From Bacteroidales bacterium (GTDB lineage Bacteria > Bacteroidota > Bacteroidia > Bacteroidales > UBA932): a stretch of DNA of 35,671 nucleotides. This document shows positions 10,389-35,671 of this stretch, one piece after another; position 1 is the first letter of the stretch; each line of letters starts with the position of its first letter. Under the pieces are notes generated by a model, which searched no databases, was not told where the DNA came from, and saw only the letters and a list, made by a program, of their open reading frames with translations. The DNA lies in NCBI GenBank assembly GCA_028700975.1, contig JAQVRQ010000015.1:1-35671 (forward strand), written 5' to 3'. A program made the position numbers and the translations under genes.

Positions 10389-10422
10389 AAAAAGGAGATG
10401 CAATTATCTACATCCCCTTTTT
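10389..10422 (-). terminator. Rho-independent terminator for the S9 peptidase gene
   Basis: AAAAAGGAGATG ... CATCCCCTTTTT inverted repeat just downstream (minus strand) of the 10444 stop. Confidence 0.65.
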
Positions 10423-10443
10423 AATAATATTTTAAAATGGGTT

Positions 10444-12882: not shown

Positions 12883-12932
12883 AGATAAAATGTTAGGTTA
12901 TTTTTTGTTTGACTATTAAAGTTGGCTTTAGT

Positions 12933-13448
12933 TTAAAGGCTATCCTGCATTTTAATGTGTTTTGGCCACTCACCCACCTCCATTTCTAAGATTTTCCCCC
13001 TCTCAATTCTGAATCTTAATGCAGTTCTCACGTTATGAAATCCCTGGATGCCTGCTGCGCCTGGATTGATTGTGAGCATATTATACTTTTTATCGTTGAT
13101 GATTTTTAGTATATGAGAGTGACCACAAATAAAGATATCCGGTCTATGTGCCTCTATAAGCTGGATCGCTCTGTAATCATATCTCCCGGGATAACCTCCA
13201 ATATGCATCATCAGAACTCTCATCCCCTCAACATCCATCAACTGAATATATGGATGAATAACTCTTATATCTGTTCCATCGCAATTCCCATATACCCCCT
13301 TTAATGGTTTTATTGCCGATATCAGATCAGATACCTCCCTGTTCCCAAAGTCGCCGGCGTGCCACACCTCGTCAACATCCCCCAAGAACTCTTTCAGACT
13401 ATTGTCAAAAATTGTATGAGTATCCGAAAGTAGTCCTATATATGCCAT
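12933..13448 (-). CDS. YfcE/MJ0936-type metallophosphoesterase
   Basis: IGLLSDTH, VWHAGDFG, GVYGNCDG, FICGHSHI, LTINPGAAG. Confidence 0.92.
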   Translation of the reverse strand: MAYIGLLSDTHTIFDNSLKEFLGDVDEVWHAGDFGNREVSDLISAIKPLKGVYGNCDGTDIRVIHPYIQLMDVEGMRVLMMHIGGYPGRYDYRAIQLIEAHRPDIFICGHSHILKIINDKKYNMLTINPGAAGIQGFHNVRTALRFRIERGKILEMEVGEWPKHIKMQDSL

Positions 13449-14635
13449 CAGAGTTTAATTATGATATTCTTTTTATAGAGCCAAATAGCCATAACAAGGA
13501 ATATAGCCACATACATAAGAGCATACATTAATGAGCCAAATTCATTGTTGCCCAGTAGCTCAACACAGCAGTTCCTGTATATCCAGGAGGATGCTGATAT
13601 TGTTGTCTCCCTTATTGTGTTATCATCTGCCACAACTGTCTCTGTCCATTTGATTACCCGTCCCAGTGTCTTTGCCAGAAGACCGGCCATAACAAAGGCA
13701 AAAAGCGGATTAAGACCCATTGCTCTAAATGGAAAAAATATCTTCTCTTTTCCTTTTATGTCGATAAAATATATAAAGAGGGCCAGCATAACAATTGACC
13801 AGCCGCCAGCATAAAACATATAGGATGGAGTCCAAAGAGGTTTGTTAATAGGGATAAATATGCTCATTACAACACCCGCACCTAGAGATAAAAGACCTAT
13901 TGTGTATAGCTTAGCAACAGCATCGCTTTTGTTTGAAGCTTTTCTTATTATACCCCCTATAGTATAACCAAAAAGTACTGTTGCAGAGCCTGTAAGTACG
14001 CCCAGAATACCTTCCGGGTCAAATGCTCTGCCAAATCCGTGGTAAACGTGTTTCTCTCCAAAAAGGGCTACATCTATTGAGCCGGAAATGTTCCCCTCCA
14101 AAGAAAATGGATCTCCACTCCCGAATATTACAAGAATAGCAACGTGAAGAATCATTAGTGCAGCCATACCTATGGCTATCTTTCCCGGCCTCCTAAGCCA
14201 TAGAGCAAGAACTCCTCCAACAAGATAGCAGAGGGCAATTCTTTGGAGAACCCCCATTATCCTTATGGAACCAATATAGTTAATATAGTTTTCTCCAAAT
14301 GAGAGAGCACTATCTGGAGATGTGGGATAAAATGGAAAAGCGTTGAGGAGCAGACCTGTCAGAAAAATAAGTGCAGACCTCTTTACAAGTTTCCCTAATG
14401 ACTTAGCATCCAATCCATCTCCGTATTTTGCAAAGGAGAAGGATAGGGCAGCTCCCACGATAAACAGGAAAAACGGGAAGACCAGGTCTGTAGGTGTGCA
14501 TCCGTGCCAAGAGGCGTGACGCAGAGGAGCAAATATTTTAGACCAACTTCCGGGGTTATTGACAAGAATCATTCCTGCCACTGTCATCCCCCTTAGCACA
14601 TCAAGTGCAACATATCTTTGAGAATGGGTATTCAT
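13448..14635 (-). CDS. HGSNAT-like/DUF5009 acyltransferase family multipass membrane protein
   Basis: MNTHSQRYVALDVLRGMTVAGMILVNNPGSW...LRHASWHGCTPTDLVFPFFLFIVG. Start set to the internal MNTHS methionine, because the longer ORF runs into divergent rsmE. Confidence 0.85.
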   Translation of the reverse strand: MNTHSQRYVALDVLRGMTVAGMILVNNPGSWSKIFAPLRHASWHGCTPTDLVFPFFLFIVGAALSFSFAKYGDGLDAKSLGKLVKRSALIFLTGLLLNAFPFYPTSPDSALSFGENYINYIGSIRIMGVLQRIALCYLVGGVLALWLRRPGKIAIGMAALMILHVAILVIFGSGDPFSLEGNISGSIDVALFGEKHVYHGFGRAFDPEGILGVLTGSATVLFGYTIGGIIRKASNKSDAVAKLYTIGLLSLGAGVVMSIFIPINKPLWTPSYMFYAGGWSIVMLALFIYFIDIKGKEKIFFPFRAMGLNPLFAFVMAGLLAKTLGRVIKWTETVVADDNTIRETTISASSWIYRNCCVELLGNNEFGSLMYALMYVAIFLVMAIWLYKKNIIIKL

Positions 14636-14674
14636 AAGGCAAAAATAACCTTTTTTCCTATATTTGCCCCTGCT

Positions 14675-15412
14675 ATGGAACTCTTTTTCACTAATCAAAT
14701 TCAGGGCTCCTCTGCTACATTAGACGAGCAGGAGAGTACGCACTGTCTCAAAGTCCTAAGACATAAGAGGGGAGACAAGATAACCTTTACGGACGGGGCC
14801 GGAAAGCTTTTTACGGCAGAGATATCAAATGTTCAGGGGAAAATTTGTCATTTAAATATACTCTCTTCCACTGAGCGTGGTGAGGAGAGACCCTACTATC
14901 TTCACATTGCTGTTGCACCCACAAAGAGCCTCGACAGATATGAATGGTTTCTTGAGAAGGCAGTAGAATTTGGCGTAGACAAAGTATCACCTGTAATAGG
15001 AGAGCACTCTGAGAGAAAGATATTCAAAAGAGAGAGAGGGGAGAGGGTAATACTATCTGCCCTTAAACAGTCACTTAAAACCAACCTTCCAATACTCGAT
15101 GAGACAATTGATCTAAAAGAGTTTCTTAATTCAGATTCAGTTTCAGCTTTTGACGGAGCTAAACTTATTGGTCACTGCAACTCAGGTGATAGGTCTGAGC
15201 TGACAACAATTATTGATTCACTCAAAACGATTAATGGTAAGAAGAGGGCGCTTATTCTGATAGGTCCTGAGGGAGACTTCTCTCCGGAAGAGGTTAAGTT
15301 AGCTATAGATAAGGGATTCCGTGACTTTACAATGGGTGAGTCCCGCTTTAGAGTAGAGACAGCAGCCGTGGCAGCAATCTCTGCAATGTACTTTCTCTCC
15401 AGAAGAGGGTAA
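14675..15412 (+). CDS. rsmE: 16S rRNA (uracil1498-N3)-methyltransferase
   Basis: MELFFTNQ...EQESTHCLKVLRHKRGD, KSLDRYEWFLEKAVEFGVDKVSPV, SERK, LIGPEGDFSPEEV, RVETAAVAAI. Confidence 0.93.
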   Translation: MELFFTNQIQGSSATLDEQESTHCLKVLRHKRGDKITFTDGAGKLFTAEISNVQGKICHLNILSSTERGEERPYYLHIAVAPTKSLDRYEWFLEKAVEFGVDKVSPVIGEHSERKIFKRERGERVILSALKQSLKTNLPILDETIDLKEFLNSDSVSAFDGAKLIGHCNSGDRSELTTIIDSLKTINGKKRALILIGPEGDFSPEEVKLAIDKGFRDFTMGESRFRVETAAVAAISAMYFLSRRG

Positions 15413-15426
15413 TCTCAACAATAGGA

Positions 15427-16389
15427 CTAGGCAGCCGTTAACAACCAGACCACATATCCAATATAGAGCGTAAAGAGGAGGGCCCCCTCTTTTTTATCAA
15501 TTCGTGTACCCTTCCCTCTGAATGCAAGTACAAGCACCAGAATTGTTGCCATCGCAGAAAACACCACGTCTACCATATTCTCCTTTACAAATGGCAGCGG
15601 AGATATGCTGGCAGAGATTCCCAAAATAAGGAAGATGTTAAATATGTTGCTTCCAACAACATTTCCTATTGCAATATCGCTATTACCCCTGTATGCAGCC
15701 ATCATACTTGTTGCAAGTTCTGGAAGAGAGGTTCCGGCTGCAACAATAGTAAGGCCGATAACTGTTTCGCTCATACCCCATCCTCTGGCCAGTTCGGTAG
15801 CATTTTTGACAATGAGGTCACCTCCAAAGATTAGCCCTGCTAGTCCACCGGCAACAAAAATTATTGAGAGCCATATAGGGTAAACTTTATCCTCTTTTGG
15901 GGTATCTTCAGCCTCAATTTGTCCCTTTTTTGCAGAGAGAAATATGTAGTATAAAAAGATTGAAAAGAATAGTAGTAGAATTAATCCATCTGATCTGGAT
16001 ATTACCCCTTGTCCCTCACCAAAAAATTCATCTCCTGCAACCGCTATAAGTACAAAAGCTGCAAGGATTGCATATGGGATCTCAATCTTCACAAGTGATC
16101 TTTGCAGACTTATGGGTCTCAGAAAAGCGGTTAACCCCACAATCACAAGCAGATTAAAAAGATTACTCCCCACAACATTTCCAACAGCCATACCGGGAGA
16201 ACCTCCGGAGGATGCAATAATATTTACAGCAAGTTCAGGTGCTGATGTTCCAAATGAGACTACTGTTAGACCAATAATAAGGTCAGAAATCTTCATCTTT
16301 TTTGCAATGGAGGATGCCCCCTTGACAAGATAGTCCGCTCCAAAGATGAGTACTACAAATCCTAATATCAGCAAAAGGTATGGTATCAT
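15427..16389 (-). CDS. Calcium/sodium antiporter (CaCA family, YrbG-like)
   Basis: Two alpha repeats: GLTVVSFGTSAPELAVN...NVVGSNLFN and GLTIVAAGTSLPELATS...NVVGSNIFN. Confidence 0.94.
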   Translation of the reverse strand: MIPYLLLILGFVVLIFGADYLVKGASSIAKKMKISDLIIGLTVVSFGTSAPELAVNIIASSGGSPGMAVGNVVGSNLFNLLVIVGLTAFLRPISLQRSLVKIEIPYAILAAFVLIAVAGDEFFGEGQGVISRSDGLILLLFFSIFLYYIFLSAKKGQIEAEDTPKEDKVYPIWLSIIFVAGGLAGLIFGGDLIVKNATELARGWGMSETVIGLTIVAAGTSLPELATSMMAAYRGNSDIAIGNVVGSNIFNIFLILGISASISPLPFVKENMVDVVFSAMATILVLVLAFRGKGTRIDKKEGALLFTLYIGYVVWLLTAA

Positions 16390-16399
16390 AACTATTTGG

Positions 16400-16984
16400 T
16401 TACTCTCTGATAATTTTAACCTCTCCTCCTGTGCCCAGCATAATTATTGAAGATGGTTTTCCGGTAGAGCCAGCTTCAAAGGAGTTGTCGGCAACCCAGT
16501 CTGCAGCTTCAATAATCTCTATTGAGATTGATTCAAACATAGATGGAGAGGGTGACCCGGATATATTTGCAGAGGTAGAGACAATTGGTCTTCCGAATTT
16601 TCTTATAAGAGCCTGGCAAAACTGATGTTCCGGAATTCTGAATGCCGCTGTTCTCTCTTCAGGAATAGCATTAGATGCAATTCTCTCCACACCAGAGTAG
16701 ATAATAGTAAGAGGCTTGTCATTTATTTCAATAATCTGCCAGGCAACATCCGGCACCTCTCTGATGTATCTGGAGAGCATATCGGGACCATCTACAAGCA
16801 TTATTAAGCTTTTGCTCTCTTCACGTCTCTTTATTTTGAATATTTTTTCAACTGCCTTTGGGTTTGTTGCATCGCAACCAAGTCCCCATACTGTATCTGT
16901 AGGGTAGAGAATTACACCACCCTCTCTGAGTACTTTTACAGCCTCATCTACAGCTTTTCTTAGTTCTTTTTCCTTAGATATCAT
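16400..16984 (-). CDS. tsaC: L-threonylcarbamoyladenylate synthase (Sua5/YciO/YrdC family)
   Basis: GGVILYPTDTVWGLGCDATN, KIKRREESKSLIMLV, RPIVSTSANISGSPSP. Confidence 0.93.
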   Translation of the reverse strand: MISKEKELRKAVDEAVKVLREGGVILYPTDTVWGLGCDATNPKAVEKIFKIKRREESKSLIMLVDGPDMLSRYIREVPDVAWQIIEINDKPLTIIYSGVERIASNAIPEERTAAFRIPEHQFCQALIRKFGRPIVSTSANISGSPSPSMFESISIEIIEAADWVADNSFEAGSTGKPSSIIMLGTGGEVKIIRE

Positions 16985-21546: not shown

Positions 21547-21620
21547 GGCGCGATAGCTCAGATGGTTAGAGCGCATGATTCATAATCATGAGGTCCCCAG
21601 TTCAATCCTGGGTCGCGCTA
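21547..21620 (+). tRNA. tRNA with CAT anticodon (elongator Met; Ile2 not excluded)
   Basis: GGCGCGA/TCGCGCT acceptor stem (one G-U), anticodon stem-loop CATGA-TTCATAA-TCATG, T-arm CCCAG-TTCAATC-CTGGG. Confidence 0.95.
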
Positions 21621-21622
21621 CA

Positions 21623-21965: not shown

Positions 21966-22832
21966 TTGGAGGAGAGAGATATGGAGAGAGAGAACCGAAA
22001 AGACGTAGCCTTTTTCGAGGCGTGGCTAAAGGGTCGCAGATACAGCACCCGGACAATCAAGGTCTATTTGAATGCCATAAATGTATTTCTTAATTACTTC
22101 GCAGATAAAGATCCCGGGGATATTACAAATTCAGATTTAGTGCTGTTCAACAGGAACTACATTCTTAAGCGCGGATATTCAGCCTCATACCAAAATCAAG
22201 TGATAAATGCCATCAAACTCTATTATCAGAAGATTGAGAAAAGGCAACTCTCAATTGAAGAGATAGAGAGACCCAGAAAATACCGCCCGCTCCCGAAGGT
22301 CATCTCAAAGCAAGTCGTAGAGCAAATGCTTGTGTCAATTCCCAACTTCAAACACAAAACGGCACTCACCCTTGTTTATGCCTGCGGTTTGCGCAGAAGT
22401 GAAATCCTGAATCTAAAACTCGTGGATTTGGATTCCAAGCGTAAGACATTGACTGTCATCAATGGAAAAGGGCAGAAAGATAGGGTGCTACCATTAAGTG
22501 ATAAACTTATGGATCTGATTATAAGATATTACAAAATGTACCGACCGAAAAAATATCTGATAGAGGGACAATCACCCGGAGAGCAATACAGCGAAACAAG
22601 CATAGAGAATATCTTTCACAAATATTTGGGAAAAATTATTAAAAATCATAGCTTTACACTACATTGTCTGCGACACAGTTATGCCACACATCTATTAGAG
22701 GCAGGAGTAAGTTTGAGATACATTCAGGAGTTGTTAGGACATAAAAGTAGCAAGACAACTGAGATATACACCTGGGTAAGTATGACCGGCCTCCAGAAGA
22801 TCAAAAACCCTACAGATGACTTTGACTTATGA
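21966..22832 (+). CDS. Tyrosine recombinase/integrase, XerC/D-like
   Basis: SAM-like N-terminal domain; catalytic R in ACGLRRSEILNL, K in NGKGQKDR, HCLRHSYATHLLEAG, LGHKSSKTTEIYTWV (Tyr). Alternative start MERENRKDV at 21981. Confidence 0.93.
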   Translation: MEERDMERENRKDVAFFEAWLKGRRYSTRTIKVYLNAINVFLNYFADKDPGDITNSDLVLFNRNYILKRGYSASYQNQVINAIKLYYQKIEKRQLSIEEIERPRKYRPLPKVISKQVVEQMLVSIPNFKHKTALTLVYACGLRRSEILNLKLVDLDSKRKTLTVINGKGQKDRVLPLSDKLMDLIIRYYKMYRPKKYLIEGQSPGEQYSETSIENIFHKYLGKIIKNHSFTLHCLRHSYATHLLEAGVSLRYIQELLGHKSSKTTEIYTWVSMTGLQKIKNPTDDFDL

Positions 22833-22939
22833 ATAAAACATTAACTGCACCCAATTGCTTAATTTATATTATTCAATAAAACTATTTCAAGCCCCATTAC
22901 TTCAACTCATTGATTCAACTTTATTGTATACATAAACAA

Positions 22940-22949
22940 GTTGTAGGCT
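22940..22949 (+). promoter_or_regulatory. Putative crossover site at the integrase/cassette-1 junction (attI-like)
   Basis: GTTGTAGGCT is the exact reverse complement of AGCCTACAAC (23649-23658); with flanks, GTTGTAGGCTaGTTA vs GTTGTAGGCTgGTTA (14/15). Confidence 0.6.
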
Positions 22950-22969
22950 AGTTAAAAAAAGCTGCTAAA

Positions 22970-23692
22970 ATGAAAAATATGCAAGATGAAAGAATTAGTC
23001 TCTTTATTAAAGACCTTAATGATTGTTTAAAGCCGAATTATGAGATTGTTAAAAGTATTTTTAACAATGAATATGGCTTTCCTGCATTAGACCCTCTAAG
23101 AGATGAAATATGTAAATGTTTTATGTGTGGTTTATACCAATCTACAATAACACTAACAAACCATCTACTTGAAAGGTCATTAAAATTCTGCTTAGCAAGT
23201 AAATATACTTTCGAAACAAAAGAAAAAGAAAGTGACATTAGAACTGTATTTAAAGAAGGGATTGATAAATATGACAATTCTATGTTGGAGCAAACTATAA
23301 ATGCAGCGTGTACACAAGGTATTATAACGAAAGACCAAAAAAAAGAACTCAAAGCATTTAGAGATAAATTTAGAAATCCTTATTCTCACGCGTTTAATAA
23401 TATTTTTGAGGGCAAGAAAGTAAAAGGGAAAGTTATTTCTTCGGCAGACCTTGAAAATGGTATCGATAATTTTTTTAAGCACTGTTTTGATAAAACTACT
23501 GACGAAGAGTTTGACCTTGAAAATTTACCATTTGCTCAAGGCATAATGCAAATTAAAATTGCCAAAGAAGACTCATTGCCTTATTTCAAAAGGGTAGATG
23601 AAATTATCAGAGATATGTTAAACAAGATAGTTTCGCAAGAAAATAACCAGCCTACAACACACCGTATACTGCATAGCCTGCCGCAGGCGTAA
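22970..23692 (+). CDS. HEPN-like protein (candidate RNase/Abi-type), cassette 1 cargo
   Basis: 240-aa alpha-helical ORF with an R-x4-H motif (KFRNPYSHAF). Its C-terminal residues are encoded inside the attC-like palindrome. Confidence 0.6.
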   Translation: MKNMQDERISLFIKDLNDCLKPNYEIVKSIFNNEYGFPALDPLRDEICKCFMCGLYQSTITLTNHLLERSLKFCLASKYTFETKEKESDIRTVFKEGIDKYDNSMLEQTINAACTQGIITKDQKKELKAFRDKFRNPYSHAFNNIFEGKKVKGKVISSADLENGIDNFFKHCFDKTTDEEFDLENLPFAQGIMQIKIAKEDSLPYFKRVDEIIRDMLNKIVSQENNQPTTHRILHSLPQA

Positions 23693-23728
23693 CACAGGCT
23701 ACGCAGCATACGGCCAAACGTTGGCAGC
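23649..23728. repeat. attC-like imperfect palindrome 1
   Basis: Arms 23662-23680 CCGTATaCTGCaTAGCCTG and 23695-23713 CAGGCTAcGCAGcATACGG (17/19 complementary), flanked by CAAC (23655-23658) and GTTG (23720-23723). Confidence 0.75.
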
Positions 23729-23896
23729 AAGTGTATTAAGACAGCGACACGACAAACAAACGAGTGACAGAAACAGAAAAAAGTAAACCATTTTGACAGG
23801 TGACCAAAGACATAGAAACGATATAACAAACGGACAACGAGTAAGCCGACACTCATTGCCGACCCTCATTGCCGACCCTATGTTTTTTATTTTTTA

Positions 23897-24002
23897 CCCA
23901 CCCGCATTTTTTAAAAACAATTTTATGCCCACCCGCAAGTGGCACATTTGGCTTTGCCCCTACCCACAAAGCCGACCCTTCGCAAAGCCAAAAGAGCCAC
24001 TT
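23897..24002. repeat. Left cassette-2 repeat block: CCCACCCGCA duplication, 19-bp IR element and a long hairpin
   Basis: CCCACCCGCA at 23897 and 23928; hairpin AAGTGGC-aca-TTTGGCTTTGC ... GCAAAGCCAAA-aga-GCCACTT (23937-24002); ATTTTTTAAAAACAATTTT at 23906-23924. Confidence 0.8.
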
Positions 24003-24049
24003 CTTATCATCGCTGTATTGTAAACAAAATTTACTTTATTGAATATAAG

Positions 24050-26875
24050 ATGAAGTATTTAGAATGGAATAATATCATATCGGCTTATTTTTTCAACCCT
24101 GCCAATGCAGGAAAGGAAATTCATTTGTATCTAACCAAGAATGATATTATTGGTTTAGCAAGGCAAAATTTCAGCGGAGAAACAGAAGACGAAATTTGGA
24201 CTGATTTTATCAATTCTATTAAACGTGGCATTCCGGGCTCAATCGGAAATGTGATTGCAAAGGCAAAACATGCTCATTCCAAAAACAATCTTATCGGCTT
24301 AAAAAAAGCGGACGGAACATTTGCCAAAATAGACGATGTTCCTGTTTTATATCCGCCTTACATTTCTTATTTGACTTTCATTGTGCTTCCGTTAATTGAA
24401 AGTCCTGACAACACTAACCTAAGAGCAAACAACTATTATAGAAGGCTTAATACTTTTCTGCAAAGTCATCAAATAAACGAAAACATCGGAACAACCGATT
24501 TTAGCAACAATCAAATAAATTGTTTGTGGGAAGATTTAGCGAATTGGGCTAATGTAAAAAACAATGGCGATTTAGGTTTGTTTAATGTAATTCCATTTCA
24601 AAACGCAAATTGGGTTTATGTTGGAAAAGTTTTTTCTCAATGTGTTCTGCCACCAAAGTTTTTAAACCGTTTACCGGAATTATTTGAGTCTATTGGTTTA
24701 GTGCCGAACACGTTTTACGATGACAAGTTTTTAAAAGAAAAAATCAAAAACAGTAGAACAGATTTAATTCCAAAAAGCACGTTAGATTTTTTGAAAAAGG
24801 ATGATGAGTTATCCAATTCAATTATTCAAACAATCCAACGTCAATACAAAAAATGGTCAGGCGAAACACACGAAGAAATTGAAGAAGGAACAAGAAAGAA
24901 AAGAAAATACACCATTGCACCTTTGTTACTTCAATTTAAAGTAAACACAAACGATGAATTTATTAAGTTTTCTTACAGAATGTATTCTTCAAATGATTAT
25001 CCGGAAGATTTGAAATTTGGTGAGCACGAAAACTTGTATGAAATTAATGGCTGGTCAAAAACACTACCACTTGATTTTGAAGAAGGACTTGAACTTAAAG
25101 ATAATTTCAACAAATGGATTGCAAAATTTCCAAATCGTGATGTGAGATTATTTGTAAGTGCAGGAACATTTCAGTTGAGTAATGATTTTTGGATTGAAAC
25201 GGACTTTCTTTCAACAACAGAACGAATGTATTTGCTGTGCAAAAATGACAAACAAGAACTAATAAGAGATTGGGGAAAAACATTCGGTAACGGAAATTTT
25301 AAACAAGAAGATTTTGACGGCTTGCCTGAAAACTATTCTTTGTTTTGGTTTCGCAATCCAACACAAGGACTTTCTGAAATTCCACTTCTTACACTTTACA
25401 CTGAAAAACGAATTGAATTAGTTGGTGGGTTAAAAATAAATTTCAGAACCTATTCAAATGAATTTTTACCGGAAGTTGAAATTGTAAATTCACACGGAAA
25501 AGAAAATGTTTATTTACAATACAAAGATACGGACGAAAAAATATATCTTTCTAAAAAAACATCGCTCAACAACCGTTGGTTATTACCTGAAACAACAGCA
25601 ATAAACACCGATTTTTACATTAAAGTTGAAGATGAAAAATTTTCAGGAAATGCACTTGTATACAATCTTGTTTCTTCTGACAATACCGCTATCAAAGTTA
25701 ATGAATCTAAATTGCCCAAAAGAGATTCCTTTGGAAGAAAAATCACAACTGATGTAGAACAATATTGTTTAGGCAGCAATATCATAAACCCAAACATTCA
25801 ACGACAAGTCCTTTACACACATTTATTCCGTTCCATAAACACAGATACAGCTACACAAATAACAACAGGAATATTTAATCACCATTGCGGAAATAGACTA
25901 TGCGATTTTCTTTCATTAAAAAGCGTAATGACTACTGAAGAATTTTTCAGAGCATTTGAGTTTTACTATTCAAAAGAATTTTCTGAACAGCGAGAAAGTT
26001 CAAATTTCAATCTCACAAAATTGAAAAGAGCATCTTTAAATTTTTATGATTTTATCGGAATTCTTGATTATGATTACGAAACAAAAAGTATTGTGTTGAA
26101 TCCTCCTCAATTAATCTACATACCTACAACAAAAGGAAGAAAAGTTTTGCTGATTGGTGCAAGAGATTCAGCATTGATTGAAACAATCATAAAAACTGCA
26201 CCAAAACACAATTTACAAGTAGAAATAACGAAACAATTTTCTACCAATGAAAGATTGCTTTTACCCGATGTTATTACTATAAAAGCATTTCAACAATCTT
26301 CTGACAACTTTGGTGAAAAAAGCTTAGTAGCATTTGCAGATGAATTGCAGATAAAATTCAATGAAAATACACTACCTCAAGTTGCATTCCTGAATTTTTC
26401 AGCAAGCATCACAGAATATGAGAGCTTATTACAACTTACAGATGAAAATGATTACGATTGGGCAAGATATACTTTCAATCCTGAAACTTTAATGTTTGAG
26501 AAATGCGAGGAAAATTCAATTGATAAATCATTTTCATTACTTCAATACAAATTAAACGAATACACCTATCAACACAAACTTTGGAAAGAAAACAAATGTT
26601 ACCAGATTGATATGAATTGGGGAAGATTTATTGCGTTAAAACATTTCAAAAAGGACGTGATTTTGTTTGATAGTACGCATACTAAAGTTGCCATTCCAAT
26701 AGAACTTCCTTTACCAAGACTACTTGCCGAATCAATTATGCTATTAAGTGGATTAGCACCAGATTTCAGAGTAATTGAAGAAAAAAAATATAGAATTTAC
26801 GTAAATATACCAAGCATATTTACGTCAAATTTATTCAGCAGATTAGGTCAAACACCAATAAATAAAACATTATGA
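24050..26875 (+). CDS. Uncharacterised ~941-aa protein, first gene of the putative defence operon
   Basis: ORF with likely start MKYLEWNNIISAYFF (24050); the upstream part of the ORF-track call is repeat-encoded. Its stop overlaps the next start (ATGA). Confidence 0.8.
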   Translation: MKYLEWNNIISAYFFNPANAGKEIHLYLTKNDIIGLARQNFSGETEDEIWTDFINSIKRGIPGSIGNVIAKAKHAHSKNNLIGLKKADGTFAKIDDVPVLYPPYISYLTFIVLPLIESPDNTNLRANNYYRRLNTFLQSHQINENIGTTDFSNNQINCLWEDLANWANVKNNGDLGLFNVIPFQNANWVYVGKVFSQCVLPPKFLNRLPELFESIGLVPNTFYDDKFLKEKIKNSRTDLIPKSTLDFLKKDDELSNSIIQTIQRQYKKWSGETHEEIEEGTRKKRKYTIAPLLLQFKVNTNDEFIKFSYRMYSSNDYPEDLKFGEHENLYEINGWSKTLPLDFEEGLELKDNFNKWIAKFPNRDVRLFVSAGTFQLSNDFWIETDFLSTTERMYLLCKNDKQELIRDWGKTFGNGNFKQEDFDGLPENYSLFWFRNPTQGLSEIPLLTLYTEKRIELVGGLKINFRTYSNEFLPEVEIVNSHGKENVYLQYKDTDEKIYLSKKTSLNNRWLLPETTAINTDFYIKVEDEKFSGNALVYNLVSSDNTAIKVNESKLPKRDSFGRKITTDVEQYCLGSNIINPNIQRQVLYTHLFRSINTDTATQITTGIFNHHCGNRLCDFLSLKSVMTTEEFFRAFEFYYSKEFSEQRESSNFNLTKLKRASLNFYDFIGILDYDYETKSIVLNPPQLIYIPTTKGRKVLLIGARDSALIETIIKTAPKHNLQVEITKQFSTNERLLLPDVITIKAFQQSSDNFGEKSLVAFADELQIKFNENTLPQVAFLNFSASITEYESLLQLTDENDYDWARYTFNPETLMFEKCEENSIDKSFSLLQYKLNEYTYQHKLWKENKCYQIDMNWGRFIALKHFKKDVILFDSTHTKVAIPIELPLPRLLAESIMLLSGLAPDFRVIEEKKYRIYVNIPSIFTSNLFSRLGQTPINKTL

Positions 26876-29800
26876 AAGACCCAATAGGTTCGTTTGAAAC
26901 CATAAAAGAAAATTTTATACGCTATGTAAAAACATCGTTCGGAACAAAGTTTGAAGGCGTTGAAAAAGAGCGTTACGATTTGCTGAATTACGACAGAGTT
27001 CTTTATCGTAAACCTTGGATTGAACCATTGCCCGACTATGTTTCAAGTGGGAAAAAAATAAATGACTTAACAGCTGAAGATTTAGGAAATGCTTTGAACG
27101 AAGGAGAAGTCGAAACATTCAAAGGACTTGTAAATACCGGACTTGTAGGGAATTTTCCTTTGCATTCGCACCAAGCGGAAATGTTGAAACAAGCATTGCT
27201 TGGAAATAATTGTATTATCACTTCCGGTACAGGTTCAGGAAAAACAGAATCTTTTTTACTTCCGTTGTTTGCTCAACTTTCAAAAGAACTTGCAAATTGG
27301 ACAGCACCCAATCAACAATCTACAAGCATAAATACTTGGTGGCGTGAAAATGGTGGACTTTCTGCAAAGCAAATTGTCAATACTTCAAATTTCACGTTAA
27401 GCAACGATGTAAGACAACGCAATCACGAAACACGAAAAGCCGGTGTAAGAGCTTTGATTCTCTATCCGATGAACGCTTTGGTGGAAGACCAAATGAGCCG
27501 TTTGCGTAAAGCGTTAGATTCTGACGACACAAGAAATTGGTTGAGCAAAAACACAAACGGAAATAAAATTTATTTTGGACGATACAATGGAAGTTCGCCT
27601 GTTGCCGGTGAGTTGAAGAAAATAAAAGATGACGGTACTTTTGCAATCAACACCAACAAAGTAAAACAACTCAAAGAACAGTTACAGCAAATTGAAACGG
27701 ATTCAAACCGTGTTGCACAATACATTCAACAAACAGGAAAAACAGGAAACGATGCAAAAGATTTAAAATCATTCTTCCAACGCTTAGACGGTGCAGAAAT
27801 GAGAAGTCGTTTTGATATGCAAGTTGCACCACCCGACATTATGATTACAAACTACTCAATGTTGAGCATAATGTTAATGCGTGACATTGACAAAGGAATA
27901 TTTAATGAAACAAAACAATGGTTAGAAGAAAGCGAAAACAATATTTTTCACTTAATCATTGACGAGTTGCACTTATACAGAGGAACGCAAGGAACAGAAG
28001 TTGCATATTTACTCAAACTTGTTCTTAATCGTTTAGGGTTAAATCCTAATCACCCACAATTGCGAATTCTTGCTTCAAGTGCTTCGTTGGAAGCAAAAGA
28101 AGAAACGAAAGAAGGACAGGAAAGCAAGCAGTTTTTGAAGGACTTTTTTGGAACAGAAAAACCGTTCAAAATTATTGAAGGAAAAAATAATCCGATTACC
28201 GCGTTCCCTGAAAATGGAATAAAACTTCCAATAAATCCTTTCAAAGAAATTGCGGAAAAATTTTCGGAAGTAAAAGGAAATATTACTGCCGTAAATTTCA
28301 TTTCAACTTGTGAAGCAAGTGCAACACAACTTGCAACAGCGTTTAATTTACCACAAGAAGGAAACGGAATTTCAAAATTAATTTCAGTAATAATCAATCC
28401 AAGCTTTCAATTAAAAGAACGTTTGTTTTCGCCTTGTCAAGATTACAAAGCAGTTTGTTCAACCCAAGCAAACGGTGATGATGATAACGGAAAATATTTT
28501 GCTGAAACAATTTTTGAAAGAACATCCAATAAAGAAGATTTAGAAAATGCTTTGCGTGGTTTGTTGATTGTAAGAGCGATGTTAGATGAAAAAGAATTTG
28601 AAGACATTGCAAAAACAATTCCTGACGATAGGAAATTACCACGTTTTAGATTTCACTATTTCTTTAGAAACATTGAAGGAATTTGGGCATCTGTTAAACC
28701 AGACGAAATTGACCAGAAATATTCAGACGAAGGAAGGACTGTTGGTAAACTTTATTCAACTACACGAATAAATTCAGAAAAAGGAAACCGTGTTTTAGAA
28801 TTACTCTATTGTGATAATTGTGGAACAACCTTATTTGGTGGTAGCCGATTGGTAACTAGAAATGAATCGGGAAACAACTCTTTTGAAATGCTTCCGATTA
28901 GCCCTAACATTGAAGGTATTCCTGAAAAAACGCCTGCTAAATTGGTTGAAAGGCGAAGTTACCAAGAATACGCTGTATTTTGGGCTTGCGGAAATCAACA
29001 ATACACGCCACACGATGCGGAAGCAGGTATTCCGCAAGTTGGTTGGCGACAACCAACTATGAACGGTTTTAATCAAACTGATTTTCTTGCAGATTGGATT
29101 CCCGCTTCACTGAATTGTATTTCGGGCGACATTGATAATTCACATAACAAGGCGGACGAAAAACCTGAACAATGGATAAAAGGATATTATTTCATCATTA
29201 CAAACAATTCAAATCGCGACATTGCTTTGCCTGATGCAAATGGAAACATTTCTGAGATTGAAACACACAAAGCATTACCAAGCGTTTGTCCAAGCTGTGG
29301 CGTAAATCATCAAAAAAGACGACAAGATTGGAATAAAAATAAAACTTCTTCTATTCGTGGTTTTAGAACCGGTTTCGCTAAAACAACACAAATGTTTGCA
29401 AAGGAATTGATGTATCAACTTCCGAGTAACGAAGCCGAAAGAAAATTAGTTGTTTTTTCTGATAGTCGAGAAGATGCAGCCCAAATTGCAAACGGAATTG
29501 AACGCAATCACTTTTCTGATTTAATGCGTGAAGTTTTAGTCAAAGAATTGCATTCAAACTTGATGTTCCGTTTTAAAATTGTAGATGCTTTTGACAAAGG
29601 CAATACAACAAGAAAACAAGAACTAAAAGAGCAATCGCAAACAATTTTTGATGAAATTGAATTCTTAGTTGAAAATTCCGCTTACACAGGAACAAACGCA
29701 AGCCGCATACGAGAAAAACAAGAAGCAGAAATAAAGTTGAACGAAATCCGTTCGCTGACTTTGAATATAAGAAGTTTAGTTCACATCACAAATTCATTAA

Positions 29801-32800
29801 ATCTTGCACCCCTTATTAAACACTTTGTTGGTTTAGGAATAAATCCAGGCGGTAATGACATTGCTTTACAAACAAGGTTATTGAACAACAATTTTGTTCC
29901 TTGGTATGACCTGATTGATTTTACAAATTTTCAATGGGCTGCTGGTGCAAACCAGGATTACATTGACGCATTGAAAGAAGGTTCATTTGACGGTCTTGCT
30001 ACAATATTTTTCGGTTCGCTGTTTTATTCGTTTGAATCTTCCGCATTGGGATATGTTTGTATAAATCCTGAATTACAGGTTATCACAGACCAAGCAAGAA
30101 CTGTTGCTTTAGCAAAAGATGATTTTTTACAAATCGTAAATTCCACAATCCGGATTTTGGGTGATAAATACAAACACAATAAAGTTGAAGATGCAAGTCC
30201 ATTCAACTTTACGCAATACAACGATTTTCCCGGACAAGTCAAAAAATACATTCGTGCAGTTGAAACAAGGTATTCAAAAAATCAAAACGAAATTGGCGAT
30301 GCCGTTTTTAATACGCTTTCAACAAGTAGTTTATTGAGAGGCGACACAGGCATTCAAATTGAAAACCTATTTATCAAAGTGGCACGTTCAACGGATTCAA
30401 TTTGGACAAGTCAAAGAGGAAGCAGACCTCACTTGCATTTTAGTGGTGGAATTTGCACTCATTCTGTTACGTCACTGCAACAGCAACCGGACAGAATTTG
30501 TGATGATGTTTGGAAAGAAAATTATCTTTCTTACAACGCCATTAAGCAACAACGTGAACCAATCCGTTTGCATTGCGAAGAACTCACCGGACAAACAGAT
30601 GACCAATTTGAAAGACAAAGACATTTCAGAAATATCATATTACCAGATGAAGGCAACAAACAAGTCAAAACAATAGACTTATTGAGCGTAACAACAACAC
30701 TTGAAGTTGGTGTTGATATCGGTGCATTGCAAGCCGTGATGTTGGGTAATATGCCACCGCAACGTTTCAACTATCAACAAAGAGTTGGTCGTGCAGGACG
30801 TAGAGGACAAGCTTATTCCGTTATTTTGACATTTTGTAGAGGTAGAAGCCACGATGAGTTTTACTTTGCTAACCCTCAAAAAATTACAGGCGATGCTCCA
30901 CCAACGCCTTTCTTGACAATGGGACAAGAAAGGATTTTTAAACGTTTGCTTGCAAAAGAAATTTTTCGCAAAGCATACGTTGAAAAAGAAATTGACATTA
31001 CTTCAGATGATAAATCAAGTGTTCACGGAGAATTTGGTTCAGTTGATAGTTGGACGATTTACAAACCTGAAATTTCTAATTGGATAAATGAAAACAGAAC
31101 TGTCATCGAACAAACAGTAGATGCATTACTAACGCCACAGCTAAAAGACAAGAAAGATGAATTTGTAAATTGGGTTGCAGATACAACAACGCCAAATGGT
31201 TTAATTGAAAAAGCAGAAAGCATTATCAATAATGAAGAAATTGCAAGTAATGACATTTCTGAAAAATTTGCCGAAGGCGGAATTTTGCCAATGTTTGGAA
31301 TGCCGACCACAGTTAAAAACTTGTACCACGGTATAAACAGGAAACCAGAACCACTCTCAATTGACAGAGCACAAGCAATGGCAATTTATGAATTTGCACC
31401 GGGATCACAGAAAACAAAAGACAAAGCTATTCATCAAGTAATTGGTTTTACAAGCGATTTTATCAAGGTTCACAATGGCATTAAAAATGCTGACACAGTC
31501 AATCAACTTCCCTTTTCACTTAACCGTTGGTTTGTACGCTGTAGGGCTTGCGGATTTTTTGAAACGTATTCGGAAGAACGAAAAGCAGAATTGGAAAGTC
31601 AAAGTGAATTTGATGTTTGTCCAAATTGTGGTGAAGACAATCCGAATAAATATCAACCGCCATTTAAACTGAAATCGCCAAGAGCATACAGAACAAATCT
31701 TTCAGCCGGAAGCGACACAAAAGATGATTCTGAATTTTTGCTTTCACGTCCGCCAATTTTTGCAGAGAAAACAGGTTCAGCAAACGTAGAAACTATAAGT
31801 AACGCTTCAATTTCTATTTCTGATAATGATGTTACTTGGCGTGTGAATACAAATTCAGATAAATTTTTTACAGGACGACTTTACAATACAAATAACCGTT
31901 TTCCTTTTAATTCAAATGGATATTGGTTCAATAACCAATGGTTATTAAATGACTTTGCAACAAATGTCCCTGATGAAAATGGCTATTCTATGCTTATACA
32001 GCAAATCGTAACAAGTGCAGACGAGCAAATTGCGTTAGCGAGCAATAAAAACACAGAGATATTCAGAATTGCACCAGCAAATGTTTCGTATGAACTTGAC
32101 TTAAATATGTTTTTTAGCGAAACAGATTTGCCACACGTCAAAGCACAAAATAACGGAGTGCGTTCCGGTTATTATTCCGCTGCATTTTTACTTCAAAGAA
32201 TTTTAGCAGACAAACTTGATGTTGACCCAACAGAAATTGAAATTGCTGATATTTCAATGAAAGAACTTGAAGACGGAAGAAGAATTGCTGAAATTATCTT
32301 GACTGATGAATTACCAAACGGTTCGGGCTTCGTAAGATTTTTATACAAAAACCTTGCAAACATTCTTTCAGAATCCATAAATCCAAGCAATGCGAATAGT
32401 TATTTAGGGAAAATTCATTCGGAAACTCATCAAGGGAAATGTGATGATGCTTGTTATGATTGTTTGAAAGTTTTCCGGAATATGAATTATCATAGTTTGC
32501 TTGATTGGCGTTTAGGTATATCAATGCTTCGTGTAATGAATGATTCAACTTTTGTTTGCGGTGCGGACGGAAATTTCAACTTTGTTGAATTGCAGAATTG
32601 GTTTGCATTTGCAACGGAATTAAGAAATGCTTTTGCTCAAAGTTTTGGTTTCTCAAATACAGCCGAGATAAATGGTTTGCCAATTATCAAATTTGGAAGA
32701 AATCAAAGAAACGTGATAATGATTGTTCACCCATTTTGGAATATGAGAAATTTCACGGAAGCAAATTGGTTGGCGGAAATTTACAATGAAATAAAAGAAC

Positions 32801-32895
32801 ATACAGAAAGTAATGGTGGAAAAATTAGCATAATTGACACATTTAACTTGCATCGCAGACCAGGTTGGTGTTATGAAAAATTGATTGAGAGATGA
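26872..32895 (+). CDS. Giant SF2 helicase with C-terminal DUF1998-like domain (DruE-like)
   Basis: Walker A ITSGTGSGKTESFLLPL, LILYPMNALVEDQ, DELH box IIDELHLYRGTQGTE, ILASSASL, VVFSDSREDAAQIANG, TTLEVGVDIGALQAVMLGNMPPQRFNYQQRVGRAGRRGQ; Cys pairs CDNCG, CPSCG, CRACG, CPNCG; C-terminal CDDACYDCLKVFRNMNYHSLLDWRLG. Confidence 0.92.
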   Translation: MKDPIGSFETIKENFIRYVKTSFGTKFEGVEKERYDLLNYDRVLYRKPWIEPLPDYVSSGKKINDLTAEDLGNALNEGEVETFKGLVNTGLVGNFPLHSHQAEMLKQALLGNNCIITSGTGSGKTESFLLPLFAQLSKELANWTAPNQQSTSINTWWRENGGLSAKQIVNTSNFTLSNDVRQRNHETRKAGVRALILYPMNALVEDQMSRLRKALDSDDTRNWLSKNTNGNKIYFGRYNGSSPVAGELKKIKDDGTFAINTNKVKQLKEQLQQIETDSNRVAQYIQQTGKTGNDAKDLKSFFQRLDGAEMRSRFDMQVAPPDIMITNYSMLSIMLMRDIDKGIFNETKQWLEESENNIFHLIIDELHLYRGTQGTEVAYLLKLVLNRLGLNPNHPQLRILASSASLEAKEETKEGQESKQFLKDFFGTEKPFKIIEGKNNPITAFPENGIKLPINPFKEIAEKFSEVKGNITAVNFISTCEASATQLATAFNLPQEGNGISKLISVIINPSFQLKERLFSPCQDYKAVCSTQANGDDDNGKYFAETIFERTSNKEDLENALRGLLIVRAMLDEKEFEDIAKTIPDDRKLPRFRFHYFFRNIEGIWASVKPDEIDQKYSDEGRTVGKLYSTTRINSEKGNRVLELLYCDNCGTTLFGGSRLVTRNESGNNSFEMLPISPNIEGIPEKTPAKLVERRSYQEYAVFWACGNQQYTPHDAEAGIPQVGWRQPTMNGFNQTDFLADWIPASLNCISGDIDNSHNKADEKPEQWIKGYYFIITNNSNRDIALPDANGNISEIETHKALPSVCPSCGVNHQKRRQDWNKNKTSSIRGFRTGFAKTTQMFAKELMYQLPSNEAERKLVVFSDSREDAAQIANGIERNHFSDLMREVLVKELHSNLMFRFKIVDAFDKGNTTRKQELKEQSQTIFDEIEFLVENSAYTGTNASRIREKQEAEIKLNEIRSLTLNIRSLVHITNSLNLAPLIKHFVGLGINPGGNDIALQTRLLNNNFVPWYDLIDFTNFQWAAGANQDYIDALKEGSFDGLATIFFGSLFYSFESSALGYVCINPELQVITDQARTVALAKDDFLQIVNSTIRILGDKYKHNKVEDASPFNFTQYNDFPGQVKKYIRAVETRYSKNQNEIGDAVFNTLSTSSLLRGDTGIQIENLFIKVARSTDSIWTSQRGSRPHLHFSGGICTHSVTSLQQQPDRICDDVWKENYLSYNAIKQQREPIRLHCEELTGQTDDQFERQRHFRNIILPDEGNKQVKTIDLLSVTTTLEVGVDIGALQAVMLGNMPPQRFNYQQRVGRAGRRGQAYSVILTFCRGRSHDEFYFANPQKITGDAPPTPFLTMGQERIFKRLLAKEIFRKAYVEKEIDITSDDKSSVHGEFGSVDSWTIYKPEISNWINENRTVIEQTVDALLTPQLKDKKDEFVNWVADTTTPNGLIEKAESIINNEEIASNDISEKFAEGGILPMFGMPTTVKNLYHGINRKPEPLSIDRAQAMAIYEFAPGSQKTKDKAIHQVIGFTSDFIKVHNGIKNADTVNQLPFSLNRWFVRCRACGFFETYSEERKAELESQSEFDVCPNCGEDNPNKYQPPFKLKSPRAYRTNLSAGSDTKDDSEFLLSRPPIFAEKTGSANVETISNASISISDNDVTWRVNTNSDKFFTGRLYNTNNRFPFNSNGYWFNNQWLLNDFATNVPDENGYSMLIQQIVTSADEQIALASNKNTEIFRIAPANVSYELDLNMFFSETDLPHVKAQNNGVRSGYYSAAFLLQRILADKLDVDPTEIEIADISMKELEDGRRIAEIILTDELPNGSGFVRFLYKNLANILSESINPSNANSYLGKIHSETHQGKCDDACYDCLKVFRNMNYHSLLDWRLGISMLRVMNDSTFVCGADGNFNFVELQNWFAFATELRNAFAQSFGFSNTAEINGLPIIKFGRNQRNVIMIVHPFWNMRNFTEANWLAEIYNEIKEHTESNGGKISIIDTFNLHRRPGWCYEKLIER

Positions 32896-33965
32896 TGAAT
32901 AAAATTGGAGAAACAAATTTTAAGGAAATCAAACGTATTTCGCCAAGCCAATTTTATTCAATGAAAAATTGTGCTTACAAATCATTATTGGCAGAAGCGT
33001 TTGACAAGAAGCCTTTACTTCCACTTTCGCCAAATGCCTATTTCGGAACAGTACTGCACAAAATGCTTGAACTGATTGCAAAGGGAATTGTGAAAAGTGA
33101 AGATGATTTTAATGCGGAATTTGACAAGCAAGTGAAAGCACTTGAAGAAGATTTGCAACAAAAAGGTTTTGGTTTTTTTGTTCCTTTAAAAATTAAGTTG
33201 CGAAATTTTGGATTGAAAAAAATTCAACTAAAAAAGCATTTGCGAAGCGAATCTGAAAAAATAACAAGTTTAGGTAACATTAAATTTTATTCTGAAAAAT
33301 GGTTTGAATCAAACGACAAATTGATTGGCGGAAAAGTTGATTTAGTGATTGAAAACGGAAGCGAAATTGAAATAATTGATTTTAAAACCGGAGCAATCAC
33401 ACAAGATTGTTTAGATGATGAAGGCGAAATTTATTCAGATGTAAAGATTGAATACAAAGAACAACTTAAACTTTATGCATACTTGTATTTTGAAAACACA
33501 AACATGTTTCCAACGGATTTGAGTTTGGTTGATTTAGCGAAGCAAAAATTTCCGGTTGAATTTTCAGAACAAGAATGTAAATCGCTTTTTGATGAAGCAA
33601 AAAGCCTTTTAAAATCTACTAATGATAGTATAAAAACAAAATCATTTTCAGCAAATCCAAAACAAGAAAATTGCAAGTATTGCCTTTACAGACCGGCTTG
33701 TTCTTTCTTTCATAAGAAACTTGAAACAGATTTTTCTTTCAACGATGTGTTGAGTGAAATTAAAGACGTGAAGAAATTTCAGAATGGAAATGTGAGTTTA
33801 TTTTTACAATATGGAAATAAGAATTTAACCATTAAAAATTTTGCTGTCGAAGAATTTGACAAGCTAAATAATCACAAGAACAAACAAATTAGAATTTATA
33901 ATTTGAGAAAGGAAGCAGCCGAATTTGTTTATTCTGTGACCGACACAACAATGATTTATGAATAA
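32892..33965 (+). CDS. PD-(D/E)XK (RecB/Cas4-like) nuclease with predicted Fe-S cluster
   Basis: SPSQFYSMKNCAYKSL, FGTVLHKMLE, GGKVDLVIENGSEIEIIDFKTG, EQLKLYAYLYFEN, ENCKYCLYRPAC (C-x2-C-x5-C). Confidence 0.87.
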   Translation: MMNKIGETNFKEIKRISPSQFYSMKNCAYKSLLAEAFDKKPLLPLSPNAYFGTVLHKMLELIAKGIVKSEDDFNAEFDKQVKALEEDLQQKGFGFFVPLKIKLRNFGLKKIQLKKHLRSESEKITSLGNIKFYSEKWFESNDKLIGGKVDLVIENGSEIEIIDFKTGAITQDCLDDEGEIYSDVKIEYKEQLKLYAYLYFENTNMFPTDLSLVDLAKQKFPVEFSEQECKSLFDEAKSLLKSTNDSIKTKSFSANPKQENCKYCLYRPACSFFHKKLETDFSFNDVLSEIKDVKKFQNGNVSLFLQYGNKNLTIKNFAVEEFDKLNNHKNKQIRIYNLRKEAAEFVYSVTDTTMIYE

Positions 33966-35085
33966 GAGTAGAGAACATAAAATTCCGATACTTTCTTTTT
34001 TTTCAGGAGGAGGTTTTATGGATATGGGATTTGAACAAGCCGGGTTTGAGGTAATTTGGACAAATGAATTTGATGAAACTTTCGCCAAACTTCACGCTGC
34101 CGGTATGACTTCGTGGAGAAAATCGCAGGGCAATGGAATAAAAGCAGAAATATTCAATGCGAAATCAATCACAGAAGTAAAATCAGAAGAAATTGTTTCA
34201 GAAGCGTTTCCAAACGGAAAACCCGAACACTTTGGAATGATTGGAGGACCGCCTTGTCAGGACTTTAGTATGAATGGTTCATTAAAAGGTTTTGGCGGAG
34301 AAAGAGGAAAACTTACAATTGTATACTTTGATAAAATCTTGGAATTAAAACCAACGTTCTTCGTTATGGAAAATGTTACCGGTTTAACAAAGAGAAAAGA
34401 CACAAAAGAGTATTTACAAACGCTATTGAAGCGTGTTGAAAAAGAATACTACGTTGATCACGAAAACCTAAATTCGTTGAATTATGGTGTTCCGCAACAC
34501 AGAGAACGTGTATTTTTTGTAGGTATTAGAAAAGATTGTATGAGCAAAAAAGCCATTGAAAAAGCACCGTTTGGTAAATGGTTTCCTTTTCCTGTAAACG
34601 AAAAATATCACGATTCTGCGACAAAGTATAATTGGGGAAAACAAATACCTTTTGGGAACAAATTGAAAAAACCAGAAGATGTTCCTTTTGAATTGTGTGT
34701 TGAAAGCTGTTTAGTACCAAATAGTAAAATTGATATTATTCCGAATGCAAATGAGGTCTTTACCTTGCACAAGCATTTAAGCGAGTTAAGTAAAATAGCT
34801 GAAGGAGAAACAAATAGACCATCTTTTAAACGATTACACCGCTATAAATATAGCCCAACAGCTTGTTATGGAAACAATGAAGTTCATTTACACCCGTATT
34901 TAAATAGGCGTTTATCTGCGAGGGAGGCTCTAAGAATACAAGGTGTGCCTGATGAATATATACTTCCGCCAGAAATTTCATTATCTAAGAAATTTAAAAT
35001 GATTGGTAATGGCGTTCCTGTTCCATTAGCTAAAGCAGTAGCAGAATCATTAAAAGACTTTTTATTAACAAATGAAATCATATAA
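33958..35085 (+). CDS. DNA (cytosine-5) methyltransferase
   Basis: ILSFFSGGGFMDMGFEQAGFEVIWTNE, GGPPCQDFS, FFVMENVTGL, NYGVPQHRERVFFVGI, LSAREALRIQGVPDEYI, MIGNGVPVPLAKAVAES. Confidence 0.95.
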   Translation: MNKSREHKIPILSFFSGGGFMDMGFEQAGFEVIWTNEFDETFAKLHAAGMTSWRKSQGNGIKAEIFNAKSITEVKSEEIVSEAFPNGKPEHFGMIGGPPCQDFSMNGSLKGFGGERGKLTIVYFDKILELKPTFFVMENVTGLTKRKDTKEYLQTLLKRVEKEYYVDHENLNSLNYGVPQHRERVFFVGIRKDCMSKKAIEKAPFGKWFPFPVNEKYHDSATKYNWGKQIPFGNKLKKPEDVPFELCVESCLVPNSKIDIIPNANEVFTLHKHLSELSKIAEGETNRPSFKRLHRYKYSPTACYGNNEVHLHPYLNRRLSAREALRIQGVPDEYILPPEISLSKKFKMIGNGVPVPLAKAVAESLKDFLLTNEII

Positions 35086-35177
35086 ATCCCTCAATATTTT
35101 GCAAGCACATTGCCAAAGCCCCACGAGCCAACGCTCAGTCCAAACTTTGTCAAAGAGCTTGCAAAGCCAACGCAAGA

Positions 35178-35196
35178 AAAATTGTTTTTAAAAAAT
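35178..35196. repeat. Inverted copy of the 23906-23924 element, downstream of the defence operon
   Basis: AAAATTGTTTTTAAAAAAT is the exact reverse complement of ATTTTTTAAAAACAATTTT (23906-23924). Confidence 0.85.
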
Positions 35197-35324
35197 TTCC
35201 CGACCCTTCAAAAAAATAAAAAACGCAACGCACAACCCGACACAGACAGGCAAAAAAGCAAACAGACAATGACACTGAAACCCAACATTGACAATGTTTT
35301 ACAAGGACGGACGACAGAACACCA

Positions 35325-35464
35325 GCTGCCAACAGCACCTATACGCAAGTGGGGGTTCAGTGCTTCGGTTGACAAATTATCGTATATTTGAACTGTAGTT
35401 CTTCGTAGGAAAGTTTAGTGCAAGAAAGCCCCCACCTGCGTATAGCTGCAAAACGTTGTGTGTC
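35325..35464. repeat. attC-like imperfect palindrome 2
   Basis: Arms 35335-35355 GCAcCTATACGCAaGTGGGGG and 35429-35449 CCCCCACcTGCGTATAGcTGC (19/21 complementary); flanked by GCTGCCAAC (35325-35333) and GTTGTGTGTC (35455-35464). Confidence 0.78.
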
Positions 35465-35478
35465 ATTAAAGAAACGAG

Positions 35479-35671
35479 ATGAATAAAATTTACAAAAGAC
35501 TTTTATCTTCAAAAATTGAAAACTTCTTAAACGAATATCTATCATCAAGAGAAGTATTTGAAGACCTTGATAAAAGAAATAAACTTCTTCATCCAGGAGA
35601 ATATGGCACATATCGTGAAAAAATATGTGATGAATTAATCAAATTCAGTATCCCAAGTAAATTTGAAACAG
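35479..35671 (+). CDS. Partial ORF, cassette 3 cargo; possibly DUF6602-like
   Basis: ATG at 35479 open to the window end: MNKIYKRLLSSKIENFLNEYLSSREVFEDLDKRNKLLHPGEYGTYREKICDELIKFSIPSKFET. It starts 24 bp after the putative crossover. Confidence 0.5.
   Translation, partial: MNKIYKRLLSSKIENFLNEYLSSREVFEDLDKRNKLLHPGEYGTYREKICDELIKFSIPSKFET

Follow-up and report, generated by a model that had tools for sequence, protein, structure and literature searches.

A candidate chromosomal integron with a recombinase outside the IntI clade in a Bacteroidales genome

Cassette array

What kind of element is formed by a tyrosine recombinase gene and the palindrome-separated genes that follow it in the DNA analysed here? 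The stretch, called the window below, comprises 35,671 nucleotides and is one contig (C57) of a draft Bacteroidales genome (1.95 Mb, 130 contigs). A preliminary description saw in it an integron-like cassette array with a XerC/D-like recombinase, and this interpretation is supported by related genomes, by a covariance model of the palindromes, by the cassette boundaries and by the phylogeny of the recombinase. We conclude, with a probability of about 0.88, that the window is the attI-proximal end of a Bacteroidota-type chromosomal integron with a non-IntI recombinase. The anatomy of the array, its boundaries and its link to the recombinase rest on several tests, made partly on data outside model building.

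All features of the array are on the plus strand. The recombinase open reading frame (ORF), 21966-22832, is real, as had been claimed, and encodes an integron-type tyrosine recombinase of 288 amino acids. It is followed by an attI-like site, CAACTTTATTGTATACATAAACAAGTTG (22916-22943), an imperfect dyad with the insertion point AAACAAG|TT; related genomes are alike up to this GTT and unlike after it. Cassette 1 (22940-23719, 780 nt) ends with attC-like site 1 (23649-23719), consisting of the R'' arm AGCCTACAAC, a 61-nt hairpin and C|GTTGGCAGC. Cassette 2 (23720-35454, 11,735 nt) carries a Druantia-type defence operon and ends with attC-like site 2 (35324-35454), where the R'' arm AGCTGCCAAC and a 121-nt hairpin site are followed by C|GTTGTGTGTC. 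Cassette 3 starts at 35455 and is cut 217 nt later by the contig end at 35671, so the array cannot be followed rightward in the source genome. Every junction had been described as AAC/GTT; this does not hold for the first one, which is AACAA|GTT and attI-like.

The head of each cassette is complementary to the outer arm R'' of its own terminal site. Base by base, the head of cassette 1, GTTGTAGGCTAGTTA (from 22940), matches the reverse complement of R'' GTTGTAGGCTGGTTA in an uninterrupted run of 10, extending to 14 of 15 positions, and the head of cassette 2, GTTGGCAGCAAGTGT (from 23720), matches the reverse complement of R'' GTTGGCAGCTGGTGT in a run of 9, extending to 13 of 15. These values are exactly those given in the preliminary description. 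For a random GTT/AAC pair of the window the probability of a run of at least 9 is 4e-4, and of at least 10, 1e-4. The structure is symmetric and the reverse strand is thus unusable as a control; Markov shuffles were taken instead, and those made from the window and from 14 further loci contained no reciprocal hairpin pairs. With the shuffles empty and reciprocity specific to neighbours, the statement that chance or generic terminators would not produce this pattern stands. Both palindromes of the window fold, with z-scores of -3.0 and -4.6 for the bottom strand and -1.8 and -2.8 for the top strand. No attC-like family was matched in Rfam.

Arrays and boundaries in related genomes

Homologues of the recombinase (E<=1e-20) were found in 144 of 149 relatives, most of them distant and Xer-like. 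Two complete genomes of the same genus, G011 and G010, encode recombinases 95-97% identical to that of the window. The upstream DNA, the recombinase gene and about 100 nt on its 3' side align between the window and G011 (97%). The three genomes diverge exactly after ATACATAAACAAG|TT, that is at AAACAAG|TT, and each differs from the others beyond this point; in other relatives a slightly altered form of the motif ends likewise. Many relatives have a contig that stops within approximately 1 kb of the 3' end of the recombinase gene, as would be expected if the array is repetitive and variable.

Eight consecutive cassettes start from the junction in G011, with heads complementary over 9-10 bases to their own R'' arms and sites of 116-121 nt; further candidate arrays of this genome lie at 82739-99089 and 2224960-2228477 of its contig C1. 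The sites in G010 extend over more than 57 kb and some are 40 or 72-73 nt long. Reciprocity was also found in G010, G117 and G016, and the search for additional reciprocal cassettes, proposed earlier, was thus positive in relatives. Runs of at least 8 were observed in 70 of the 88 intervals examined. The median cassette is 826 nt long and eight exceed 3 kb, the Druantia cassette of the window being the largest of the 70.

A cassette of 247-249 nt is present in G010 in eight copies with differing neighbours. When the copies are compared with one of them, the G of GTT is the first homologous base in 5 of 7 pairwise alignments, and homology persists rightward only between copies that also have the following cassette in common. 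Both within and between genomes, therefore, boundaries fall exactly at GTT, as the preliminary description had predicted for genome comparison. The 247-249-nt cassettes are often adjacent to cassettes of 378-379 nt, also in eight copies (L036-L038, e.g. positions 2513-3138 of the joined reverse complement). Most heads of the former have one extra base (GTTAATGGGTC against R'' CCGACCCATAAC).

Covariance model and its distribution

The covariance model R1 was built from 30 aligned sites, among them attC-like site 2 of the window, which it recovers at 89.6 bits. RNAalifold predicts 17 stem pairs for the 30 sites, 16 of them with compensatory changes. The model spans only the region from AAC to GTT, so that the cassette-specific arms lie outside it. 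It was applied to 80 recombinase-homologue loci of named genomes, covering 371 kb upstream of the recombinases and 200 kb on their 3' side. There were 73 matches, 68 of which lie 3' of the recombinase on the same strand, and none of the non-Bacteroidota loci among the 80 had a match. Among the new sites found by the model, which belong to other genera, reciprocity runs of at least 8 occur in 40/48 neighbouring pairs and in 12/350 other pairs.

In 20 whole genomes, most recombinases scoring at least 299 bits have R1 sites 3' of the gene on their own strand. Whole-genome controls were positive for all eight Bacteroidota isolates (one of them weakly) and for none of the 11 non-Bacteroidota genomes. 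Flavobacterium enshiense DK69 contains 70 sites (E<=0.01). The custom model, proposed earlier as a check, thus finds sites adjoining homologous recombinases across Bacteroidota.

Over the phylum, R1 sites are present in 82 of the 148 sampled genomes. Canonical IntI was detected in 46 of the 148; of the genomes above the cut-off, a single one belongs to the class of the window. Surveys based on IntI report almost no integrons in Bacteroidetes, namely In0 elements and one complete integron in Salinibacter, beside Chlorobi and Ignavibacteriae (PMC9024848). This near-absence contrasts with the frequency of R1 sites.

Recombinase family

The score of the window recombinase against the IntI model TIGR02249 is 167.6 bits, with a cut-off of 265 bits, and in the profile comparison the protein is below every curated NCBIfam cut-off. 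Its alignment with IntI4 (2A3V) shows one stretch of missing residues, corresponding to the IntI insertion of about 41 residues. The segment between the two flanking motifs is 56-63 amino acids long in the family of the window and its simple relatives, compared with 64-68 in Xer-like proteins and 100-101 in IntI. The IntI-specific insertion near patch III is therefore absent from the entire family.

In a tree of 68 rows IntI proteins form one clade (support 100/100) and the family of the window another (96/95). The latter includes the recombinases associated with tet(X3), blaVEB-3 and rAID arrays and those of Chryseobacterium plasmids, as well as a few relatives from Proteobacteria, Spirochaetes and Firmicutes. 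XerC and XerD of the same genomes fall into a different clade. The absent insertion, the score below the cut-off and the separate clade confirm that the system does not look like classical IntI/attC, as had been stated, and the insertion and the clade lead us to reject membership of the recombinase in classical IntI.

In the available part of PMC8138268, the insertion is said not to be fully conserved in an integron-like subgroup of simple tyrosine recombinases, and the family of the window may be one of these. The same part of that paper calls the insertion essential for integron function and describes no arrays of insertion-less members.

Candidate mechanism

Most likely, circular cassettes are cut out and integrated by the adjacent recombinase, which would act on the attI-like site at 22940 and on the attC-like hairpins and cut at G|TT. 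Within such a circle, the head of the cassette would pair with its own R'' arm over approximately 10-15 bp and so restore a full site, and integration would split this site into halves at either end of the cassette.

The hairpins are asymmetric. Mismatches in the stems mostly have A in the left arm against C in the right arm: 55 A.C against 13 G.T or T.G in the aligned sites, and 125 A.C, 10 C.A, 11 G.T and 24 T.G in the new ones, at positions 10 and 15 nt after AAC. The A.C mismatches of the top strand are G.T wobbles on the bottom strand, and the bottom strand has the higher stability in 54 of the 73 new sites, compared with 100 of 230 random segments. This asymmetry would be left by a bottom-strand hairpin substrate, as in IntI integrons. 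Since the stem mismatches at fixed places are G.T on the bottom strand and A.C on the top strand, the bottom strand is probably the substrate. The attC sites of IntI integrons have extrahelical bases (PMC3053210) where R1-type sites have wobbles.

Alternative explanations

In its general logic the array resembles IntI/attC integrons, such as class 1, Vibrio-type and archaeal ones: an attI site beside the recombinase as the point of entry, tandem co-oriented cassettes, hairpin sites with AAC and GTT ends, complementary cassette heads and R'' arms, insertion at G|TT and an apparent preference for the bottom strand. The attI ends are also similar, AAACAAG|TT in the window and AAACAAAG|TT in attI1, and blaVEB-1 with an R1-type site resides in an IntI1 integron, so that at least one site of this type is evidently a substrate of IntI1. 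One possibility, therefore, is a classical integron with a merely divergent IntI. We regard it as quite unlikely given the profile score, the family-wide loss of the insertion and the distinct IntI clade. Moreover, R1 has no match in R388 or in whole genomes including those of Allochromatium and Calditrichia, whose loci contain IntI-type recombinases, and its best E on loci of true IntI genes is 0.036. Wherever IntI and R1 sites occur together in the genomes examined they are apart, on different contigs in G246, G196 and G154. The blaVEB-1 integron and the many R1 sites far from any recombinase also agree with recombinase-less cassettes (CALIN) mobilised by IntI elsewhere, the adjacent recombinase being unrelated. 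This explanation seems very unlikely, as the source genome (G000) has no IntI match at E<=1e-40, the sites follow the family of the window on its 3' side in genus after genus, and relatives diverge precisely at the recombinase junction.

A simple Xer-like recombinase without an arm-binding domain, together with an attI-like site that is an imperfect dyad, might rather suggest Xer/dif-type modules (pdif), in which XerC/XerD act on double-stranded dif-like sites. However, the sites of the array fold into hairpins whose arms are specific to each cassette and whose mismatches are asymmetric and fixed in position; they are not dif repeats, and XerC/D of the same genomes belong to another clade. The array has neither dif-like sites nor a recombinase of the XerC/XerD clade, and this highly improbable explanation was rejected. 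Finally, G+C-rich hairpins between genes could be terminators or REP-like palindromes with a coincidental appearance of an array. This has next to no probability: GTT marks the boundaries both of repeated cassettes and in comparisons of genomes, and reciprocity, which is neighbour-specific and absent in shuffles, refutes it.

Several observations weigh against the integron interpretation with the non-IntI recombinase. The window itself has only two sites, and these differ in length (61 and 121 nt). Eight of the 48 neighbouring pairs are not reciprocal, and there are several more such pairs in G010; these we put down to missed short sites, insertion sequences or decay. The sites are related by descent, and the pair and mismatch counts are thus not independent. 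The many R1 sites of relatives that are far from any detected recombinase imply either detachment of arrays or a second enzyme capable of using these sites. For G186 and G103, the sites closest to the recombinase are on its opposite flank and divergently oriented. Catalysis by the adjacent recombinase, a single-stranded substrate and present activity are inferences.

The divergent layout, as in classical integrons, occupies C33 372907-387768 in G186 and C5 20079-23826 in G103. In four loci of CPR bacteria (L118, L121, L123, L149) the sequence stops just 5' of the recombinase, and an array could be on that side.

Relation to known integrons

Unlike IntI integrons, arrays of the window type have fixed G.T positions on the bottom strand, cassette-specific arms of approximately 10 nt and cassettes of up to 11.7 kb, and their recombinase is usually transcribed toward attI. 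Transcription of the integrase toward attI and along the cassettes, as in the window, is also known from the 'reverse' integrons of Treponema (PMC3607928). The latter are called intI integrons, and the recombinase family and attC type of the window differ; they are set apart here by their description only.

The array of the window is most likely a distinct and largely overlooked integron variant. No description of the system as an integron was found in the literature searched, which was covered in part, so that an earlier description is possible. We consider it likely that there is a second Bacteroidota-wide lineage of integrons apart from IntI, in which folded single-stranded attC sites are recognised by means of the fixed G.T positions, with no need of the IntI insertion, and which serves as a source platform for the packaging of tet(X), blaVEB and rAID genes, with some cassettes crossing into IntI1 integrons. 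If so, the IntI insertion is dispensable for integron-type recombination, and entire defence systems of almost 12 kb can move as a single cassette.

Links to rAID arrays, tet(X) and blaVEB

A Bacteroides ovatus plasmid encodes a recombinase of the window's clade followed by immunity genes, which is the layout of rAID, recombinase-associated acquired interbacterial defence (PMC12247911, citing earlier work). Eleven of the 12 neighbours in this array are reciprocal at 8 or 9 of 9 positions, compared with 3 of 144 other pairs, for junctions picked by eye. The rAID arrays of gut Bacteroidales have a recombinase nested in the window's family and share with its arrays the co-oriented short genes, intergenic motifs and, in the array examined, reciprocity; a tyrosine recombinase 5' of such genes and motifs is indeed found in the family. 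Unlike the window array, they have short sites of approximately 50 nt with ATTA heads, and their cargo is immunity genes. No immunity genes of type VI secretion systems are present in the window, whose cargo is a HEPN-like gene and Druantia. An array of the rAID type, with immunity genes, reciprocity, short sites and ATTA heads, lies at 7707-16786 of locus L183. The term integron does not appear in the 2025 rAID paper, which regards rAID biogenesis as mechanistically unsolved (PMC12247911); arrays built as integrons would provide a testable answer.

In a Sphingobacterium plasmid, tet(X2) is located between two R1 sites, and its head GTTATGTGCC matches R'' GGCACATAAC reciprocally at 10/10 positions. 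A B. fragilis plasmid has one R1 site after tet(X2) and another approximately 160 nt before its head. The xerD gene beside tet(X3) in Acinetobacter encodes an N-truncated member of the window's family, 73% identical to that of G091. From the GTT onward tet(X3) is homologous to the gene of the Sphingobacterium plasmid, and it is followed by an apparent left half of an R1-type site whose R'' is not reciprocal to the tet(X3) head. These tet(X) loci, with R1 sites, xerD or a remnant of R'', are at L184 3878-5330, L185 3719-5337, L178 2949-5117 and L187 4140-4180. This suggests that tet(X) was once a cassette of such an integron. At tet(X4), only the remnant of R'' is left.

The blaVEB-3 gene is directly 3' of a truncated family member (L182 6001-7763), the two meeting at GGGA|GTTAGCGGTAAT. 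In a class 1 integron, blaVEB-1 has the same head as blaVEB-3 and an R1-type attC scoring 83.2 bits (L186 2990-4095). Judging from these sequences, tet(X) and blaVEB may both have originated in arrays of this kind, and if the system works as proposed, their packaging there before uptake by ISCR2 and class 1 integrons would be plausible. In Acinetobacter and Enterobacterales, ISCR2/ISVsa3, IS26 or class 1 integrons have cut and mobilised the xerD-tet(X) and blaVEB units, and the original array is gone.

Cargo and neighbourhood

Cassette ORFs are directed mainly along the array strand (112, against 15 opposite). The cargo includes restriction-modification genes, GmrSD, an RND efflux pump, an ABC-F ATPase, a LinB-like nucleotidyltransferase, superoxide dismutase and MerT.

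Cassette 1 of the window contains an ORF of 240 amino acids (22970-23692), earlier called HEPN-like. The R-x4-H motif, RNPYSH, is present, but the match to the Pfam Csm6 HEPN family (E 0.006) is under its cut-off, and the product is a possible HEPN protein, weakly supported. The operon of approximately 11.7 kb noted previously is present as cassette 2 and was identified as a Druantia-type defence system, with DruE accompanied by DruF, DruK, DruL and DruM partners. DruF and DruL are apparently joined in a single ORF (23939-26875, ATG at 24050; PADLOC PDLC00054 and PDLC00056). It is followed by the DruE helicase of 2007 amino acids (26872-32895; PADLOC DruE2, 1924 bits), a DruK-like PD-(D/E)XK nuclease (32892-33965) and DruM, a C5-cytosine methyltransferase (33958-35085), the last two identified by PADLOC and protein-family matches. 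A search for further copies of the cassette in 198 genomes yielded one DruK relative (G114, 65%). The truncated cassette 3 contains an ORF from 35479 with weak similarity to DUF6602.

A tRNA-Met(CAT) gene (21547-21621, plus strand) is located just upstream of the recombinase, and blastn of the window against G011 showed that the neighbourhood of ispF, this tRNA and the recombinase is also present there. The listed start codon of the recombinase is TTG; an alternative ATG at 21981 is preceded by a GGAGG-rich stretch.

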